In this document: piece by piece, positions 19,020 through 46,596 of the stretch
Layout of the letters: each line of letters opens with the position of its first letter
How positions within the stretch are numbered: the first letter of the stretch is position 1
Origin: Hallerella porci
GTDB taxonomy: Bacteria; Fibrobacterota; Fibrobacteria; Fibrobacterales; Fibrobacteraceae
DNA length: 64,000 nt
Direction of reading: 5' to 3'
NCBI RefSeq assembly: GCF_003148885.1
Contig: NZ_QGHD01000008.1
Coordinates: 1 to 64,000, forward strand
Notes under the pieces: generated by a model
The model's database searches: none
Told to the model about the DNA's origin: nothing
What the model saw: only the letters and a program-made list of their open reading frames with translations
Translations under genes and position numbers: made by a program

Positions 19020-20045
19020 ATGTTCTACTCTCATCGACTTTTTCGACTTTTCCCCGTTGCGATGGCGCTTTTCATCGGAACTAGTTTTAGCTATGCCGAC
19101 GAAACCGCTCTCCCCGTTTCGGATTCTTTACAAGCCAAAAATTTAACCGAAAATTCTGCTCCCGATTCCGCGGTCGCGAAAGCTCCGAGCGATTCTGCCG
19201 TTACAATTCCCGATTCCGCGGTCGCGAAAGCTCCAAGTGATTCTGCCGTTACAATTCCCGATTCCACGGTCGCGAAAGCTCCAAGTGATTCTGCCGTTAC
19301 AATTCCCGATTCCGCAGTCGCGAAAGCCCCAAGTGATTCTGCCGTTACAATTCCCGATTCCGCAGTCGCGAAAGCCCCGAGCGATTCTGCCGCTACAATT
19401 CCCGATTCCGCGGTCGCGAAAGCGCAAACCGATTCTTCTAACGCAGACACGATTCTTTACCAAAAACGCCGCCCGATGGGACTCGGTTTGATTTACGAAA
19501 TCACGAATGTGAAAGCGTCCAATGTCGAAAGCAATATGCGCCGCAAAGGAAAAAATTACGACGTCGATGTAGACATTTCCAATTTAATCGGTATCGCTTC
19601 TCAATATTACATCAACAAATGGATTTCTCTCTTCGGTGCCTTTGCATATAACCGTTTTGATATCGATTATACGCCGCGGGACAAGTCCGATAAAGAACGC
19701 TCGATTACCGCAAACAATTTACTGCTCCAAGGCGGATTCCAAATCGGATTTTCTTTCCTGCACAGTCAGAATTATCAAATCCGCGCGCTCGGATTTTTGG
19801 GCGGAATGTTCGGCTATTCGTTCCTCAACGACGACTATTATATGAATCCGTTAATTTTCGGATATCTCCGCGGCATCGGTTTACAAGTCGCCTTTCATCG
19901 CGTTGCCATTTTCGCCGGCGTTCGCAGCACGCACTATTATTTCCACACGTATGATAGCAGCCATTGGGACAATGACGATTACGGATTTATGCTCGACTTT
20001 GACACGATGTCCTGCCCATTCTTCTCTGTCGGCATAGGATTTTAA
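19020..20045 (+). CDS. Outer-membrane beta-barrel protein with a DSAV repeat linker
   Basis: A 341-residue protein with signal peptide (FPVAMALFIGTSFSYA). A low-complexity linker at residues 49-137 has 16-residue units (PDSAVAKAPSDSAVTI). A beta-barrel-like C-terminal half of about 200 residues follows, rich in alternating aromatic strands such as QYYINKWISLFGAFAYNRFD and GYLRGIGLQVAFHRVAIFAG. It probably sits in the outer membrane; I cannot name a family. Eight bases separate it from the downstream epimerase gene, so they may share a transcript. Confidence 0.65.
   Translation: MFYSHRLFRLFPVAMALFIGTSFSYADETALPVSDSLQAKNLTENSAPDSAVAKAPSDSAVTIPDSAVAKAPSDSAVTIPDSTVAKAPSDSAVTIPDSAVAKAPSDSAVTIPDSAVAKAPSDSAATIPDSAVAKAQTDSSNADTILYQKRRPMGLGLIYEITNVKASNVESNMRRKGKNYDVDVDISNLIGIASQYYINKWISLFGAFAYNRFDIDYTPRDKSDKERSITANNLLLQGGFQIGFSFLHSQNYQIRALGFLGGMFGYSFLNDDYYMNPLIFGYLRGIGLQVAFHRVAIFAGVRSTHYYFHTYDSSHWDNDDYGFMLDFDTMSCPFFSVGIGF
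19164..19432 (+). repeat. 48-bp coding minisatellite (about 5.6 copies)
   Basis: Copies begin at 19164, 19212, 19260, 19308, 19356 and 19404, exactly 48 bp apart. They differ only at a few positions (GCGGTC/ACGGTC/GCAGTC, CTCCAAG/CCCCAAG/CTCCGAG). The period keeps the frame, so copy-number change would lengthen or shorten the linker without disrupting the protein. Confidence 0.95.
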
Positions 20046-25053: not shown

Positions 25054-27363
25054 ATGAACGCATTTCAAAAAATTCTTTCGCTGATTTCTCGCGTCTTCCC
25101 AGTTCCTGGGAAAAAGGTTTTCATTTGGCTCGGCATTTTCCTTTTGCCGTGTATCGCTATCTTCGTTGCAATTTATCTGTATTTTGCAAGTCTTGTGCCG
25201 ACTCTTCCTTCGCTCGAGCAACTCGAAGATATCGACCCGAAACTCGTGACAACCGTTTACGATAAAGACAGCGTTCCGGTGCACGAATTCTTTGTAGAAC
25301 GTCGCATGTGGACGCCGATTGATTCAATTCCGCAGATGGCGATGAATGCGGTGATGGCGACGGAAGACCGCGTTTTCTACAGCCATTGGGGCATGAACAT
25401 TTTGGCGATTCCGAAAGCGGTGATTCAGTCCGTGACCCGCGGCGATAAAATCCGCGGAGCTTCCACGTTAACGCAGCAACTTTCCAAGCTTCTCTTCCTC
25501 ACTCCCGAGCGCAAACTTTCGCGTAAAATCAAAGAAGCGATGACTTCGGTTCGCATTGAACAAACTTATACCAAGCGCGAAATCATGGAATTTTACATGA
25601 ACGAAGTTTACTTGGGCGGAGGCAATTACGGCTTCCAAGCGGCGAGTGATTTTTATTTCGGAAAACCTCTTGATAGTCTTTCCGTTCCGCAGTATGCAAT
25701 TCTCGCGGGCATGTTACAGCGCCCCGAAGGTTACCGCCCCGATCGCCATCCGAAACTCGCACTAGAACGTCGCAATACCGTTCTCTATGCGATGTATGAC
25801 GAAGGCTACATTTCCAAAGAAGATTACAAGCGTTACATTGAAACTCCCGTCGAAACGGTGAAGCACAAAGTCGGAAACGGCTCCGGACTTTACTACTACG
25901 AAGAAATTCGCAAATTCATGGAAAATAAATATGGTCAAAAATCCCTTTACGCAGACGGCGTGAACATTTACAGCACCATCGATCCCGAAATTCAAGCGTT
26001 CGCAGAACAAGTCGAAAAGAAGCACATTGAACGCATCCGGAAACGCATTCAGCAGCGTGCCGTTTGGAAGCTCGGACTCACAAGCAAATACAAGATGGAT
26101 AGCGATTCCATCGTCGCACACTTCGATAGCGTTTACGCTCTTTTCAAAAAAGAATACTTGGCAAAAGATACCGCATCCGATCCGTCCAAGTGGCGTTATC
26201 CCGATTCTTCGCGTTACCACGCCCCGCAGATGGCGATGATTTTAATCGAAAACGGAACGGGCGCAATCCGCGCAATGGTCGGCGGCAACGACTTTAACGA
26301 ATCCCGCTGGAACCGTGCAGTGCAATCCTTACGCCAACCGGGTTCTTCTTTTAAGCCGATTGTTTACGCGACTGCAGTCGAAGCCGGAGCCTCTCCTTGC
26401 GATTCGATTAACGACCAACCGGTAACGATTGAAGACGAAAGCGATCCGTCAAAAACATGGCGTCCCGCGAACTTTGAAAAAGAATTTGAAGGGATGATGA
26501 CTCTCCGCCGCGCCCTTTATCGTTCGATGAATTTACCCGCCGTTCTCACCGGCATTAAATACGGCCTCCCCAATGTGGTGAACTACGCCCGCAAGTTTGG
26601 CATTCGCAAAGCACCGCTACAGCCAGTCCCCAGTCTTGCGCTCGGATCCATCGGCAGCACGTTAATGGAAATGACTTCGGCGTATACCGTATTCCCGAAC
26701 GGAGGCGTCCGCATTGAACCGTATATGATCGATTCCATCGTCGATAAAGCGGGAAACGTCATCGAAAGACATAAAAGCGAAGAACGGACGGTTTTAAAAC
26801 CGGCGAGCGCATACATTATGGTCGATATGCTGAAAGATGTCAACATCCACGGAACCGCAGCCCGCGTCGGCGCCAGCGGATTCCGCCACCCGAGCGGAGG
26901 AAAAACCGGAACGACAAATAATTACGCAGACGCTTGGTACATCGGCTTTACCCGTTACTACACCCTCGGCATTTGGGTTGGGACTGATTCGCCCGCTCCG
27001 ATGGGCCCGGGACATACCGGTTCCGAAGATCCGCTCCCCGCTTGGATTGAAGTGATGAAAGAATTGCACAAGGATTTGCCGATTAAAACGTTTGCGATGG
27101 CACCCGGCGTTGTAAGCAAAAAAATGTGTAACTTTACGGGAAAAATTGCAGGTGAATTCTGCGGAACTACTTCTTACTGTCTTTATTCCGCGGGACATGT
27201 TCCTTCTGAATTCTGCGACGGCAATCATCTTTCGAATAAAAAGTCTGCAGACGATGCGACGATTTTCTCGAGCAAAAGCACCGCCGAAGGCTCGATGAAA
27301 GCGAAAACGAAAAAAGAAAAAGACGCTCCGCCCCCGAAAAAGAAAACGAGACAAATGTTCTAA
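25054..27363 (+). CDS. mrcA: Class A penicillin-binding protein (PBP1A family)
   Basis: This bifunctional enzyme polymerises and cross-links peptidoglycan in the periplasm. The 769-residue protein has an N-terminal membrane helix (FIWLGIFLLPCIAIFVAIYL). The GT51 glycosyltransferase domain (about 60-240) contains ATEDRVFYSHWG with the catalytic Glu and GASTLTQQLSKL. The transpeptidase domain (about 400-690) has SSFK (Ser nucleophile), SMN and KTGTT. The C-terminus is a Lys-rich tail (KAKTKKEKDAPPPKKKTRQMF is its last part) after a cysteine-containing segment with four Cys (MCNFTG, EFCGTTSYC, EFCDG). A terminator follows. Confidence 0.93.
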   Translation: MNAFQKILSLISRVFPVPGKKVFIWLGIFLLPCIAIFVAIYLYFASLVPTLPSLEQLEDIDPKLVTTVYDKDSVPVHEFFVERRMWTPIDSIPQMAMNAVMATEDRVFYSHWGMNILAIPKAVIQSVTRGDKIRGASTLTQQLSKLLFLTPERKLSRKIKEAMTSVRIEQTYTKREIMEFYMNEVYLGGGNYGFQAASDFYFGKPLDSLSVPQYAILAGMLQRPEGYRPDRHPKLALERRNTVLYAMYDEGYISKEDYKRYIETPVETVKHKVGNGSGLYYYEEIRKFMENKYGQKSLYADGVNIYSTIDPEIQAFAEQVEKKHIERIRKRIQQRAVWKLGLTSKYKMDSDSIVAHFDSVYALFKKEYLAKDTASDPSKWRYPDSSRYHAPQMAMILIENGTGAIRAMVGGNDFNESRWNRAVQSLRQPGSSFKPIVYATAVEAGASPCDSINDQPVTIEDESDPSKTWRPANFEKEFEGMMTLRRALYRSMNLPAVLTGIKYGLPNVVNYARKFGIRKAPLQPVPSLALGSIGSTLMEMTSAYTVFPNGGVRIEPYMIDSIVDKAGNVIERHKSEERTVLKPASAYIMVDMLKDVNIHGTAARVGASGFRHPSGGKTGTTNNYADAWYIGFTRYYTLGIWVGTDSPAPMGPGHTGSEDPLPAWIEVMKELHKDLPIKTFAMAPGVVSKKMCNFTGKIAGEFCGTTSYCLYSAGHVPSEFCDGNHLSNKKSADDATIFSSKSTAEGSMKAKTKKEKDAPPPKKKTRQMF

Positions 27364-27394: not shown

Positions 27395-28034
27395 CATTAG
27401 GAATGAAGAATGAGTGCGCACCGCTTCGCGGGGTTTTGAGAACTTAGAGCTGAGAACTTAGAGCTTAGAAATACAAGTTCTAAGATCTTGCGTTACCGCG
27501 CGACAAAGTCGCGCCATGATGACATTTCTAACTCCTCATTGCCCATTTCTCATTTTCTCTCATGCAATTCTGCGAGAAGCCATTTAACACGTCAAATTCG
27601 TCCACACAATTCTGCAAGATGCCGTTTTACTCACCAAATGCGTCCATTCACTTTTGCGAGATGCTGTTTTACCCACCAAATGTGTCCATTCACTTTTGCA
27701 AGATGCCGTTTTACCCACCAAATGTGTCCATTCACTTTTGCAAGATGCTGTTTTACCCACCAAATGAGCCCATTCACTTTTGCAAGATGCTGTTTTGCCC
27801 ACCAAATGTGTCCATTCACTTTTGCAAGATGCTGTTTTGCCCGCCAAATGCGTCCATGCATTTGGCAAGGTGACATTTTACCCACCAAATGCGTCCTTGC
27901 ACTTTTACGGTTCCCCCTAACCACTAGCCACTAACAACTAATCACGACTCCCCTTTCGCGCCTTTTCCCCCGCGCAGCTTTGCCACACGCTATCTACATT
28001 TCTAATTTCTCATTCCTAATTTCTAATTTTTTTC
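27395..28034. other. Non-coding intergenic locus A
   Basis: About 640 bp without a credible gene. It starts with near-repeats GAACTTAGAGCT, an AGTTCTAAGATCT stretch and a GCGCGAC-AAA-GTCGCGC hairpin (27498-27514). It then holds the 42-bp array, and ends in T-rich text with repeated ATTTCTAATTTCTCATTCC-type motifs just before the rlmN promoter. Similar motifs recur at locus B (44909-45555). Confidence 0.6.
27562..27915. repeat. 42-bp tandem repeat array A (about 8 copies)
   Basis: Copies recur every 42 bases; the TGC anchor is at 27571, 27613, 27655, 27697, 27739, 27781 and 27823, with a degenerate last copy after 27860. Central units are nearly identical (GCAAGATGCTGTTTTACCCA, then CCAAATGTGTCCATTCACTT). 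The first unit is different and is shared with array B: 27577-27604 is identical to 44984-45011. Because 42 is a multiple of three and the unit lacks stops, several frames on both strands are open, but none has a ribosome site. I treat it as non-coding. Confidence 0.92.
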
Positions 28035-28049: not shown

Positions 28050-29144
28050 GTGACAAATTATAAAGATATCAAATCTCTGACTGTGGACGAGCTCAAAGAA
28101 TGGCTTTCTGCCAACTGTGAGAAGACGTACCGCGCGGATCAAATCGAAAATTGGCTCTTTTGCGGTCAAGTTTCGAGTTATGACCAGATGAAAAATATTC
28201 CGCAGCAAACGCGGGATAAATTATCAAAAGCTTTTGCGATTCGCTCACTTTCCGAAGTGCAGCACCTCGTTTCTGTCGATGGAACCGTCAAATGGCTTTT
28301 CAAAACCCCCGATGAAAAATTCATCGAAACCGTTCTCATTCCGACGAATGGACGGTTCTCGGTTTGCGTTTCGACGCAAATCGGATGCGCACAAAATTGC
28401 GCCTTTTGCCGCACCGCAAAAATGGGATTCATCCGCAATCTCGAAGCCGGCGAAATTCTCGAAGAAATCATCCGGGTCAACGAATATCTCAAAGAAACCG
28501 GCGAAATTGACGCCGATGGAAAACCCGCCCAAGTCACGAATATCATCTTCATGGGAATGGGCGAACCGCTCAATAATTTGGAAAATGTGCACCGCACTTG
28601 TTGCACTCTCCACAACCAAAAATTATTTAATCTCGGCCGTAAAAAAATGACCGTAAGCACGAGTGGCGTCGTTCCGAAAATCAAAGAACTCGTCGATAGA
28701 AACACGCCTTGCTGCCTCGCGGTTAGCCTCAACAGCACAAACAATGAACGTCGCAGTTCTGTAATGCCCGTCAATAAAGTTTGGCCGATTGAAAAACTTT
28801 TAGAAGCGACGGACGAATATACCCGCCGCACCGACAATTACGTCACCTTTGAATTTGTTTTGATGAAAGGCGTCACGTGCACCGATGAAGCCGCCAAAGA
28901 ACTGATCAAAATCTGCGCCCCGCGCCGCTGCAAAGTCAATGCGATTGTCCTCAATCAAATGGACGATCCCAACTTGGAAGCGCCAACACAAGAAGAAGTG
29001 GACCATTTCCTCGAGAAAGTTCGTGCCGCCGAAATTCAAATCACTATCCGCAACCCGCGGGGACGCGATATTCTCGCAGCCTGCGGTCAGCTCGCTTACA
29101 AAAAACAACAGAAGGTAGTCAATGCTCACACAGAATCTCTCTGA
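28050..29144 (+). CDS. rlmN: Dual-specificity RNA m2A methyltransferase RlmN
   Basis: RlmN is a radical-SAM enzyme that methylates C2 of A2503 in 23S rRNA and A37 in some tRNAs. Its 364-residue length is typical. The iron-sulfur cysteines are Cys113, Cys117 and Cys120 (CAQNCAFC). GMGEPLNN, STSGVVP and AVSLNS are family motifs, and the C-terminal Cys in AACGQLA is the methyl-carrying residue. The start is GTG 28050, directly after a promoter-like element; no upstream ATG exists in frame. The 3' end overlaps the next gene by 23 bases. Confidence 0.95.
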   Translation: MTNYKDIKSLTVDELKEWLSANCEKTYRADQIENWLFCGQVSSYDQMKNIPQQTRDKLSKAFAIRSLSEVQHLVSVDGTVKWLFKTPDEKFIETVLIPTNGRFSVCVSTQIGCAQNCAFCRTAKMGFIRNLEAGEILEEIIRVNEYLKETGEIDADGKPAQVTNIIFMGMGEPLNNLENVHRTCCTLHNQKLFNLGRKKMTVSTSGVVPKIKELVDRNTPCCLAVSLNSTNNERRSSVMPVNKVWPIEKLLEATDEYTRRTDNYVTFEFVLMKGVTCTDEAAKELIKICAPRRCKVNAIVLNQMDDPNLEAPTQEEVDHFLEKVRAAEIQITIRNPRGRDILAACGQLAYKKQQKVVNAHTESL

Positions 29145-44089: not shown

Positions 44090-44908
44090 TTACTTCAATT
44101 CGGCTGCGGCTGCAGAAGATGCGCCGTTTTGTTCGATGTGAACAATGTAACGGCCAGCGGCTGCGTTCTTGCCATTCCAAGTGAGAGTTTGGAATCCCGC
44201 TTTGGCGTGATCCGCTGTTAAGCGCGCCAGTTCTTCGCCGTTTGCGCTCACAATGCGAATGATAGCAGAGCCTTCGCGTTTTAGGTCAAAGGAAACTTGG
44301 TTGCGGTTAAATCCTTTGAGAGAACCCGCCGAACGGACTTGCGATTTTGTCTGCGGCATTTCGAAAGAAGCATCCGCTTTTTCAATGGCGACAGCCGAAA
44401 GTTCTGAAGCGCCGACGGTCATATCTTCGGGGATAACGCGACCTTCTTTCATCACCGAGAGAAGTTCATAATTTTCGCCGAGATTTTTGCGGGCAACTTC
44501 TGCGATTTCTGCGGCAGAATAAGCCTTCGAAGAGGATCCGTCATACCATTCTTGCACAGAAGCCGCGTCGATTTCGTTCACCGCAATTTGTGCGCGGCGT
44601 AAAGTCACCGACATCTTTTCTTTTTCGCGGACGATGGAAAGTTCAACGGGCTTTCCGACGGTGCCGCGGAGAATGTCCTTCGATTCTTCGAGGTCATTTC
44701 CCGCGAGAGAATTGCCGTCCACCGCGATAATGCGGTCGTCTTTTTCGAGTCCCGCTTCGAAAGCCGGTGAACCCGGAATGACTTCGACAACGCGAACGCC
44801 GTCATCCGTTGCATAAATGGTGACACCGATACCGCCAAAAGATTCACCAGCCATTGCCGCGGTCGCTGCAAAAGCCAAAGCACAAGCTGTTTTCGTCAAA
44901 AGTTTCAT
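44090..44908 (-). CDS. Secreted PDZ-domain protein with C-terminal Ig-like/sorting domain
   Basis: A 272-residue protein with signal peptide MKLLTKTACALAFAATAAMA. Residues about 25-105 form a PDZ domain (GGIGVTIYATDDGVRVVEVI, FEAGLEKDDRIIAVDG, LRGTVGKPVEL). The C-terminal ~75 residues look like a FlgD-Ig/type IX sorting-like domain (SAGSLKGFNRNQVSFDLKRE, TWNGKNAAAGRYIVHIEQ). No protease domain is present, so it is a binding or scaffold protein, possibly at the surface. GGAGG precedes ATG 44908. Confidence 0.78.
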   Translation of the reverse strand: MKLLTKTACALAFAATAAMAGESFGGIGVTIYATDDGVRVVEVIPGSPAFEAGLEKDDRIIAVDGNSLAGNDLEESKDILRGTVGKPVELSIVREKEKMSVTLRRAQIAVNEIDAASVQEWYDGSSSKAYSAAEIAEVARKNLGENYELLSVMKEGRVIPEDMTVGASELSAVAIEKADASFEMPQTKSQVRSAGSLKGFNRNQVSFDLKREGSAIIRIVSANGEELARLTADHAKAGFQTLTWNGKNAAAGRYIVHIEQNGASSAAAAELK

Positions 44909-44976: not shown

Positions 44977-45290
44977 CTGCAGGAAGCCATTTAACACGTC
45001 AAATTCGTCCATGCAACGCTGCGGCAAGCCATTTAACACGTCAAATTCGTTCTTGCAACGCTGCGGCAAGCCATTTAACACGTTAAATTCGTCCTTGCAA
45101 CGCTGCGGCAAGCCATTTAACACGTCAAATTCGTCCATGCAACGCTGCGGCAAGCCATTTAACACGTCAAATTCGTTCTTGCAACGCTGCGGCAAGCCAT
45201 TTAACACGTCAAATTCGTTCTTGCAACGCTGCGGGAAGCCATTTAACACGTTAAATTCGTCCTTGCAACGCTGCGGGAACACTTTTAAAT
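44977..45290. repeat. 42-bp tandem repeat array B (about 7.5 copies)
   Basis: The CTGC anchor recurs at 44977, 45019, 45061, 45103, 45145, 45187, 45229 and 45271, exactly 42 bases apart. The unit contains GCAAGCCATTTAACACGTCA followed by AATTCGTCCATGCAACGCTG. Variation falls at few sites (GTCA/GTTA, TCCATG/TTCTTG/TCCTTG). Aligned to the array A unit, 26 of 42 bases agree, and 44984-45011 is identical to 27577-27604. Open frames run through both strands, as for A, but lack ribosome sites. Confidence 0.93.
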
Positions 45291-45333
45291 GAGAAATGAA
45301 GATGATGGCACGCAGGAGAAGCGTCTAAAAAAC

Positions 45334-45442
45334 GCTAGTAAGCTAGCGGAGGCCTCGGAAGCCTTCTTTTGATTTGCTGGCAAGCTAGCAGAGACCTCGG
45401 AAACCTTCATTTGATTTGCTAGCATACTAGCGGAGGCCTCGG
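45334..45442. repeat. 42-bp tandem repeat array C (about 2.6 copies)
   Basis: GCTAGTAAGCTAGCGGAGGC begins at 45334, with copies at 45376 and 45418. Each has an imperfect GCTAG-CTAGC palindrome and GAGGCCTCGG. Its sequence is unrelated to arrays A and B, but the 42-bp period is the same and it starts 44 bp after array B. Confidence 0.88.
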
Positions 45443-45533: not shown

Positions 45534-45555
45534 CGCACAAAAAATGAGGTGCTTT

Positions 45556-46596
45556 ATGCTCAGCGAAAATAAACGGAACTTCTTCTTTGGAATTCTCTTT
45601 ATCGCGTTGATAACGGAAATCGCCTTCTTCATCGCCGAAATTCCTGCGGTCAAAGCCTTGTCTTTGAGCCCGCTTATCGTCGGTCTCTTGCTCGGTATTA
45701 TTTATGCGAATACCTTGCGCAAATTTACACCTACATCTTGGGCGCCCGGTGTTGCGTTCTGCTCCAAAAAAATTCTGCGGTTGGGCATCATCCTTTACGG
45801 CTTCCGTTTGACTTTTGGACAAATTATCGATGTGGGAATTCCGGCTCTGATGGTCGACGCCATTATTGTTTCCGTGACTCTTGTCGGCGGTTACTTCATC
45901 GGCGCAAAATGCATGAAGATGGATAAAGAAACCGCTCTTCTCACTTCTTGTGGAAGCGCTATCTGCGGAGCTGCTGCCGTTCTCGGTGCCGAAGCCGCTA
46001 TCAAAAGTAAACCGTATAAGACTGCGGTCGCCGTTTCGACCGTCGTGCTTTTCGGAACTCTTGCGATGTTCCTTTACCCGATTCTTTATCGGAATGGTAT
46101 TCTTCATTTGAGCCCCGAAAATACAGGCCTTTACATCGGTTCAACGATTCACGAAGTGGCGCACGCCGTCGGTGCCGGAAATGCTACGGGCGATGCGGTC
46201 ATCGCTGCCAATGCGATTGTCGTGAAAATGATTCGCGTGATGTTCCTCGTTCCGGTTCTTCTCGTTCTCGCTTTCTTTGTCGCAGGCCGCTTAAAATCGG
46301 ACGATGAAAAAGGCGACTCTGCAAATACAAAACGCAAAATCGCTGTTCCTTGGTTTGCCTTTGGATTCCTCGCTGTCGTAATTTTCAATTCGTTTGGACT
46401 CTTTGGCACTGGCCTTCTCAAGGGAATTGAAACAGTCGATACTTTCTTCCTTTCGATGGCGATGACCGCTCTCGGTACAGAAACGAGTCTCGATAAATTC
46501 AAACAAGCCGGTCCGAAGCCATTTATTTTGGCGACGATTCTTTTCGTCTGGCTCGTCTTTGGCGGTTACGGTCTCGCATACGCCTTAGGCGCATAA
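45556..46596 (+). CDS. YeiH/UPF0324-family putative sulfate exporter
   Basis: A 346-residue multi-spanning membrane protein with about ten helices. LSLSPLIVGLLLGIIYANTL, RLGIILYGFRLTF, TSCGSAICGAAAVLGAEAAI and GSTIHEVAHAVGAGNATGDA match the YeiH family. Members are proposed to export sulfate or related anions, but substrates are poorly tested. I start at ATG 45556, preceded by GAGGTG; the in-frame ATG 45544 lacks a site. The next gene, also a transporter, follows in the same direction. Confidence 0.85.
   Translation: MLSENKRNFFFGILFIALITEIAFFIAEIPAVKALSLSPLIVGLLLGIIYANTLRKFTPTSWAPGVAFCSKKILRLGIILYGFRLTFGQIIDVGIPALMVDAIIVSVTLVGGYFIGAKCMKMDKETALLTSCGSAICGAAAVLGAEAAIKSKPYKTAVAVSTVVLFGTLAMFLYPILYRNGILHLSPENTGLYIGSTIHEVAHAVGAGNATGDAVIAANAIVVKMIRVMFLVPVLLVLAFFVAGRLKSDDEKGDSANTKRKIAVPWFAFGFLAVVIFNSFGLFGTGLLKGIETVDTFFLSMAMTALGTETSLDKFKQAGPKPFILATILFVWLVFGGYGLAYALGA

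Follow-up and report, generated by a model that had tools for sequence, protein, structure and literature searches.

Two intergenic gaps in the window (the whole 64,000-nucleotide stretch of Hallerella porci DNA analyzed here, part of contig C8 of a 2.85-Mb genome in 78 contigs) hold tandem arrays of 42-bp units that share sequence with each other. This raises the question of how one repeat came to lie in both places and whether it serves the cell there.

Arrays A, B and C and the repeats around them

The features of the two gaps are listed below. P1 and P2 denote two palindromic centers of the unit, and F1 to F8 the subfamilies of arrays, both described in later sections.

27437..27489, no strand assigned: heptamer module (GAACTTAGAGCTGAGAACTTAGAGC...TTCTAAGATCTT), also found beside arrays across the genome
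27562..27576, plus strand: left terminal P2 half-unit of array A (ATGCAATTCTGCGAG)
27577..27906, plus strand: array A, 42-bp units of subfamily F1 (AAATGTGTCCATTCACTTTTGCAAGATGCTGTTTTACCCACC), detected by TRF, with relatives found genome-wide
27577..27604, plus strand: first unit of array A, F2-like, 28 bp identical to array B
27897..27910, plus strand: right terminal P2 half-unit of array A (TTGCACTTTTACGG)
27917..27949, no strand assigned: heptamer module (CTAACCACTAGCCACTAACAACTAATCACGACT), of a type found at the right end of F1 arrays
27993..28029, no strand assigned: heptamer module (TTCTAAT/TTCTCAT), right edge of the repeat island
44977..45276, plus strand: array B, 42-bp units of subfamily F2, detected by TRF
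45277..45310, plus strand: right-end module of the F2 element at array B, ending in ...TTTTAAATGAGAAATGAAGATGATGGC
45334..45442, minus strand: array C, 42-bp units of subfamily F3, which has five loci in the genome
45446-45497: degenerate intergenic heptamer run

Array A lies between an upstream gene labeled PBP-like in an earlier sequence-only reading (25054-27363, plus strand) and rlmN downstream (28050-29144, plus strand), array B between the genes at 44090-44908 (minus strand) and 45544-46596 (plus strand). TRF confirmed both as 42-bp tandem arrays, as that reading had described them, with 7.5 copies and 88% matches for array A (27593-27906) and 7.1 copies at 94% for array B (44977-45276). 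The 28 identical bases reported for the two arrays were an exact match as well (AAGCCATTTAACACGTCAAATTCGTCCA, 27577-27604 in A and 44984-45011 in B). The likeness of the units also held up (P-value = 0.0008 against 5,000 shuffles of B, mean 17.2 matches), although in the best phase the two consensus units have 24 of 42 positions in common and not the 26 counted before. A chance match in low-complexity text is discounted.

Array C, which the sequence-only reading had not noted, adjoins array B and also has a period of 42, and its unit, which carries GCTAGC and GAGGCCTC palindromes, looks unrelated to those of A and B. The protein encoded at 45544-46596 has a second genome copy (G000:C26:34327-35259, 79% identity, match from query residue 31). 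Distinct from the intergenic arrays are in-frame coding repeats at 19160-19423 (48-bp) and at L083:8840-9146, the latter of 42 bp and lying in a Ser-rich linker.

The arrays are embedded in mosaics of other repeats, chiefly heptamer runs and short G+C palindromes. Degenerate intergenic heptamers of the TTAGAAC, CTAACCA, TTCTAAT and AATTATG types recur across the genome, similar ones are present in F. intestinalis and F. succinogenes-type loci, and the runs recall the heptamer repeats of cyanobacteria. As for CRISPR, which the sequence-only reading had rejected, direct repeats and partly palindromic units are alike, but the units here abut and the unique spacers between repeats are absent.

Array loci across the genome

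DNA searches with six units, with hits merged by eye, gave about 48 array loci in the genome (nine F1, nine F2, eleven F4/F8, eight F5, six F6 and five F3). The proposal of one dispersed family, homogenized separately at each place, is supported and extends far beyond two arrays. The stretches sampled amount to 840 kb, comprising 396 kb of unselected whole contig and a remainder partly picked for hits; beyond them, the catalogue rests on DNA similarity searches. The sampled loci are intergenic. Across the 840 kb, where an intergenic array had a unit of more than 25 bp, its period was nearly always 42, 41, 43 or a multiple, and arrays inside genes had many different periods. The gene gaps that hold arrays can be convergent, divergent or codirectional, and no preference was found for the orientation of arrays relative to genes.

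F1 (array A), F2 (array B), F4 and F5 share one common 42-column register without gaps, with 20-29 of 42 positions agreeing between their references. Most arrays match the reference of their own subfamily at 35-41 of 42 positions, where the shuffle maximum is 25; F1b reaches 28 and F7 only 23. In local alignment, F6, F7 and F8 appeared as weaker relatives of this F1/F2/F4/F5 superfamily, and the similarity of F3 (array C) to the other subfamilies stayed within the null. Comparison of 78 unit pairs with shuffles gave 12 at P ≤ 0.01, nine of them inside the superfamily.

Contig C8 terminates within an F4 array (L082:16260-16742) and contig C26 starts within one, indicating that the arrays break the assembly and that true copy numbers may be higher. 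No match was found for array A among plasmids and phages, nor for one exact 21-base F2 pattern among viral contigs. The open-access literature yielded no description of such interspersed repeats in Fibrobacter.

Common ends and the copy-number series

F1 and F2 arrays have the form P2-(P1-P2)n between recurring end modules, so that they begin and finish with P2. The P2 of array A (GCAATTCTGCG) also terminates arrays on contigs C1, C10 and C15. At F2 loci with a spacing of 42, the number of inner units n is 0 (C20), 1 (C16 and C12), 3 (C1), about 7 (array B) and 8 (C7 and C21). The right end at most F2 loci reads ...GCGGGAAGACTTTTTAAATGAGAAATGTAGATGATGGCGCGCCGGGGTTTTGAGAACTTAG, with L090 departing after AAATGAGAAATGT, and the right-end module of array B recurs in near-identical form at F2 loci in L061, L079, L088, L089 and L092 and in L091. 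Array B has a degenerate left end. F1 arrays have their own common right end (GCAATTCTGCGGTTAAATTCCCTAACCACTAATCAC) and left end (ATCTCATTCAGACCTGC). Mixed arrays also occur: array A opens with an F2-like unit, and an array on C43 combines F1 units with an F2 right end. Terminal units differ from interior ones, which have been homogenized within arrays, and blocks of several units have been duplicated, for instance with a four-unit offset in the C15 array.

Whole-unit block duplications and homogenization within arrays would also be expected if these were plain minisatellites, each grown locally by slippage and made alike between loci only by later gene conversion. However, local slippage does not explain end modules common to several loci or forms with n of zero and one, and one register runs across the subfamilies; we therefore regard this explanation as improbable. 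We propose instead, with a probability of about 0.68, that A and B represent two subfamilies within a single BOX-type, non-coding, non-autonomous interspersed superfamily whose arrays expand by slippage or unequal recombination and are probably near-neutral.

BOX elements of Streptococcus pneumoniae are dispersed, intergenic and built as boxA-(boxB)n-boxC with a variable n that includes zero; they have open frames on both strands without coding evidence and are presumed to be non-autonomous parasites (PMC3049150). The arrays described here are likewise intergenic and composite, with many dispersed copies, a variable number of short tandem units and frames open on both strands; at F2 loci, fixed ends enclose an n that ranges down to zero. 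The likeness is one of architecture and carries no claim of sequence relation or descent from boxA, boxB or boxC. Unlike in BOX, several subfamilies with different palindrome cores coexist in this genome and the unit has two dyads 21 bp apart. Further, gaps between convergent genes contain more BOX elements than expected (PMC3049150), a bias that is not seen here.

Under the BOX-type reading, the basic element would be a short palindrome-rich cassette, P2-P1-P2, set between recurring end modules in intergenic DNA. Since P2 recurs as a direct repeat at a distance of 42 bp, whole P1-P2 units could be gained or lost when copies of P2 slip during replication or recombine unequally. P2-(P1-P2)n would be the outcome, and we infer that this process sets n. 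The same process would homogenize arrays from the inside and leave older sequence in the end units. Shared ends, mixed arrays and block duplications fit a cassette that expands in this way. Dispersal of the cassette, which is presumably mobile, might proceed by transposition or by templated copying between repeat islands. Common end pieces and differing repeat numbers resemble the behavior of parasitic DNA, and the arrays are most likely without essential host function and tolerated in the gaps.

In a test for MITE-type terminal inverted repeats, some F2 loci had TTTCTCATTT...AAATGAGAAA-like ends; neither a partner IS nor a target-site duplication was found, and no transposase was tied to the arrays. 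REP/BIME elements, which are associated with RAYT transposases, are palindromic, intergenic and clustered in arrays too. They were rejected as a model, as the sole Y1 transposase match in this genome is one IS200-like copy with no such repeats adjoining. That match (L215) is not intact as one full-length frame; several Y1 matches are present in F. intestinalis (G005) and in G002. MIRU/VNTR loci of Mycobacterium are also tandem repeats scattered through intergenic DNA, with a copy number particular to each locus, but their units differ in size from those here and some of them overlap the ends of genes with small open reading frames, whereas the units here are partly palindromic and non-coding.

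A unit length divisible by three, together with frames that stay open through A and B on both strands, could suggest proteins with 14-residue repeats. Yet in 23 of 25 arrays substitutions fall evenly on the codon phases (the two exceptions disagree in phase), the open frame differs by array, and related arrays with 41- and 43-bp periods shift the frame. The arrays are thus not coding sequence, and we give this alternative almost no weight.

A transcribed small RNA or 3'-UTR element acting as RNA hairpins, the first being among the functions offered by the sequence-only reading, is very unlikely. The minus strand of array B does fold better than shuffles (z = -2.26, 2 of 100), and pneumococcal BOX elements are transcribed (PMC3049150). 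Against this, both strands of array A and the plus strand of B folded no better than shuffles (z = -0.93, +1.29 and +0.71), Rfam gave no match at the arrays, and orientation relative to genes shows no preference. The z-scores therefore lend a small RNA no support, and a structured RNA family was rejected, with the B minus strand as the exception.

Palindromes, relatives and the near-constant period

Over 129 distinct units, the best palindromic centers were 37.5 (P1) and 16.5 (P2), exactly 21 bp apart, scoring 5.2 and 3.9 of 8 pairs (mean over all centers 2.06, SD 0.77). Center 16.5 also showed the largest covariation excess, i.e., complementarity within over between units (0.98, SD over centers 0.31). 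The same two centers came out on top in F1, F2, F4 and F5 taken singly, with P-values from 0.0025 to 0.2, mostly 0.05-0.2. With a looser palindrome test, only F4 and a few others reached significance. Given the common descent of the subfamilies and the lack of a significant palindrome in array A itself, we consider the two-dyad structure of the superfamily unit suggestive but not conclusive. AT periodicity near 10.5 bp was inconsistent among units. An origin of 42 as six times seven from an internal heptamer periodicity was dismissed, as lag 7 had no clear peak.

The pair of palindromic centers, set 21 bp (two helical turns) apart, is the one feature on which selection could act: it might form hairpins or cruciforms that serve mobility, or offer phased binding sites for dimers. 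On account of this spacing, a protein-binding array is a possible candidate, and the one left among the functions offered by the sequence-only reading. Each unit would present two dyads to a dimeric nucleoid-associated or segregation protein, and selection would hold the period at 41-43 bp (four helical turns). In several subfamilies the two dyads are separated by exactly half a unit and one of the two shows covariation, and the period is 41-43 in almost all intergenic arrays here and 41-42 in four F. intestinalis arrays despite differing units. However, the palindrome cores differ between subfamilies, so one protein would hardly recognize them all, neither F3 nor F. intestinalis units show significant self-complementarity, and the A and B units were not found in sister species, with loci scattered without orientation. 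We therefore judge a binding array unlikely, if somewhat less so than minisatellites. A replication or segregation site, also proposed from the sequence, is unlikely given dozens of loci, none kept in the relatives searched, and no consistent orientation to genes.

A/B-type arrays occur in this species and not in the relatives examined. A search of 60 other Fibrobacterota genomes returned nothing for array B, array A gave nothing above background in five same-genus genomes, and neither A nor B matched significantly in five same-genus species. Intergenic arrays with a period of 41-43 were not found in 400 kb of a complete same-genus genome, nor in roughly 1.5 Mb drawn from further records, most of them from Fibrobacter. 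The gap between the PBP-like gene and rlmN measures 686 bp here and about 100 bp in three same-genus MAGs, where absence is weaker evidence than in a complete genome because MAGs tend to break at repeats. When array B was checked for an empty site, no relative was found to carry the neighboring gene in matching surroundings.

For the RlmN of the window, the closest named record is F. intestinalis ATCC 43854 (95% identity). The corresponding gap in that strain is likewise long, but it contains different palindromes and heptamers. They belong to the strain's own family of intergenic palindromic repeats (GGAATCGGAGATTCC, GGAAGC..GCTTCC; L098:9240-9720), which has matches in more than 60 places there, as against almost none in the genome of the window.

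The intergenic arrays of F. intestinalis have periods of 41, 42, 41, 41 and 39. Weak similarity was seen for F6-Fi_d, F5-Fi_b and Fi_a-Fi_d, each at P = 0.005, which is the floor of 200 shuffles, with 78 pairs tested. Distant common descent is therefore possible, the period is not established as independent of sequence, and the 41-43 period may be inherited, as the similarity links some F. intestinalis units to the superfamily. We consider it doubtful that the period and not the sequence is maintained, with intergenic arrays of the Fibrobacter clade held at 41-43 bp, or four DNA turns, while the unit sequences themselves are replaced from one subfamily or species to the next; this would imply a dedicated enzyme or DNA-binding protein by which helically phased arrays are made or used. 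If the period were a constraint and not an inheritance, it would point to an unknown process shaping intergenic DNA. In herbivore guts, Fibrobacter is a key degrader of fiber. With n running from zero to eight at one cassette and a compact orthologous gap in same-genus genomes, growth of the element is directly testable.
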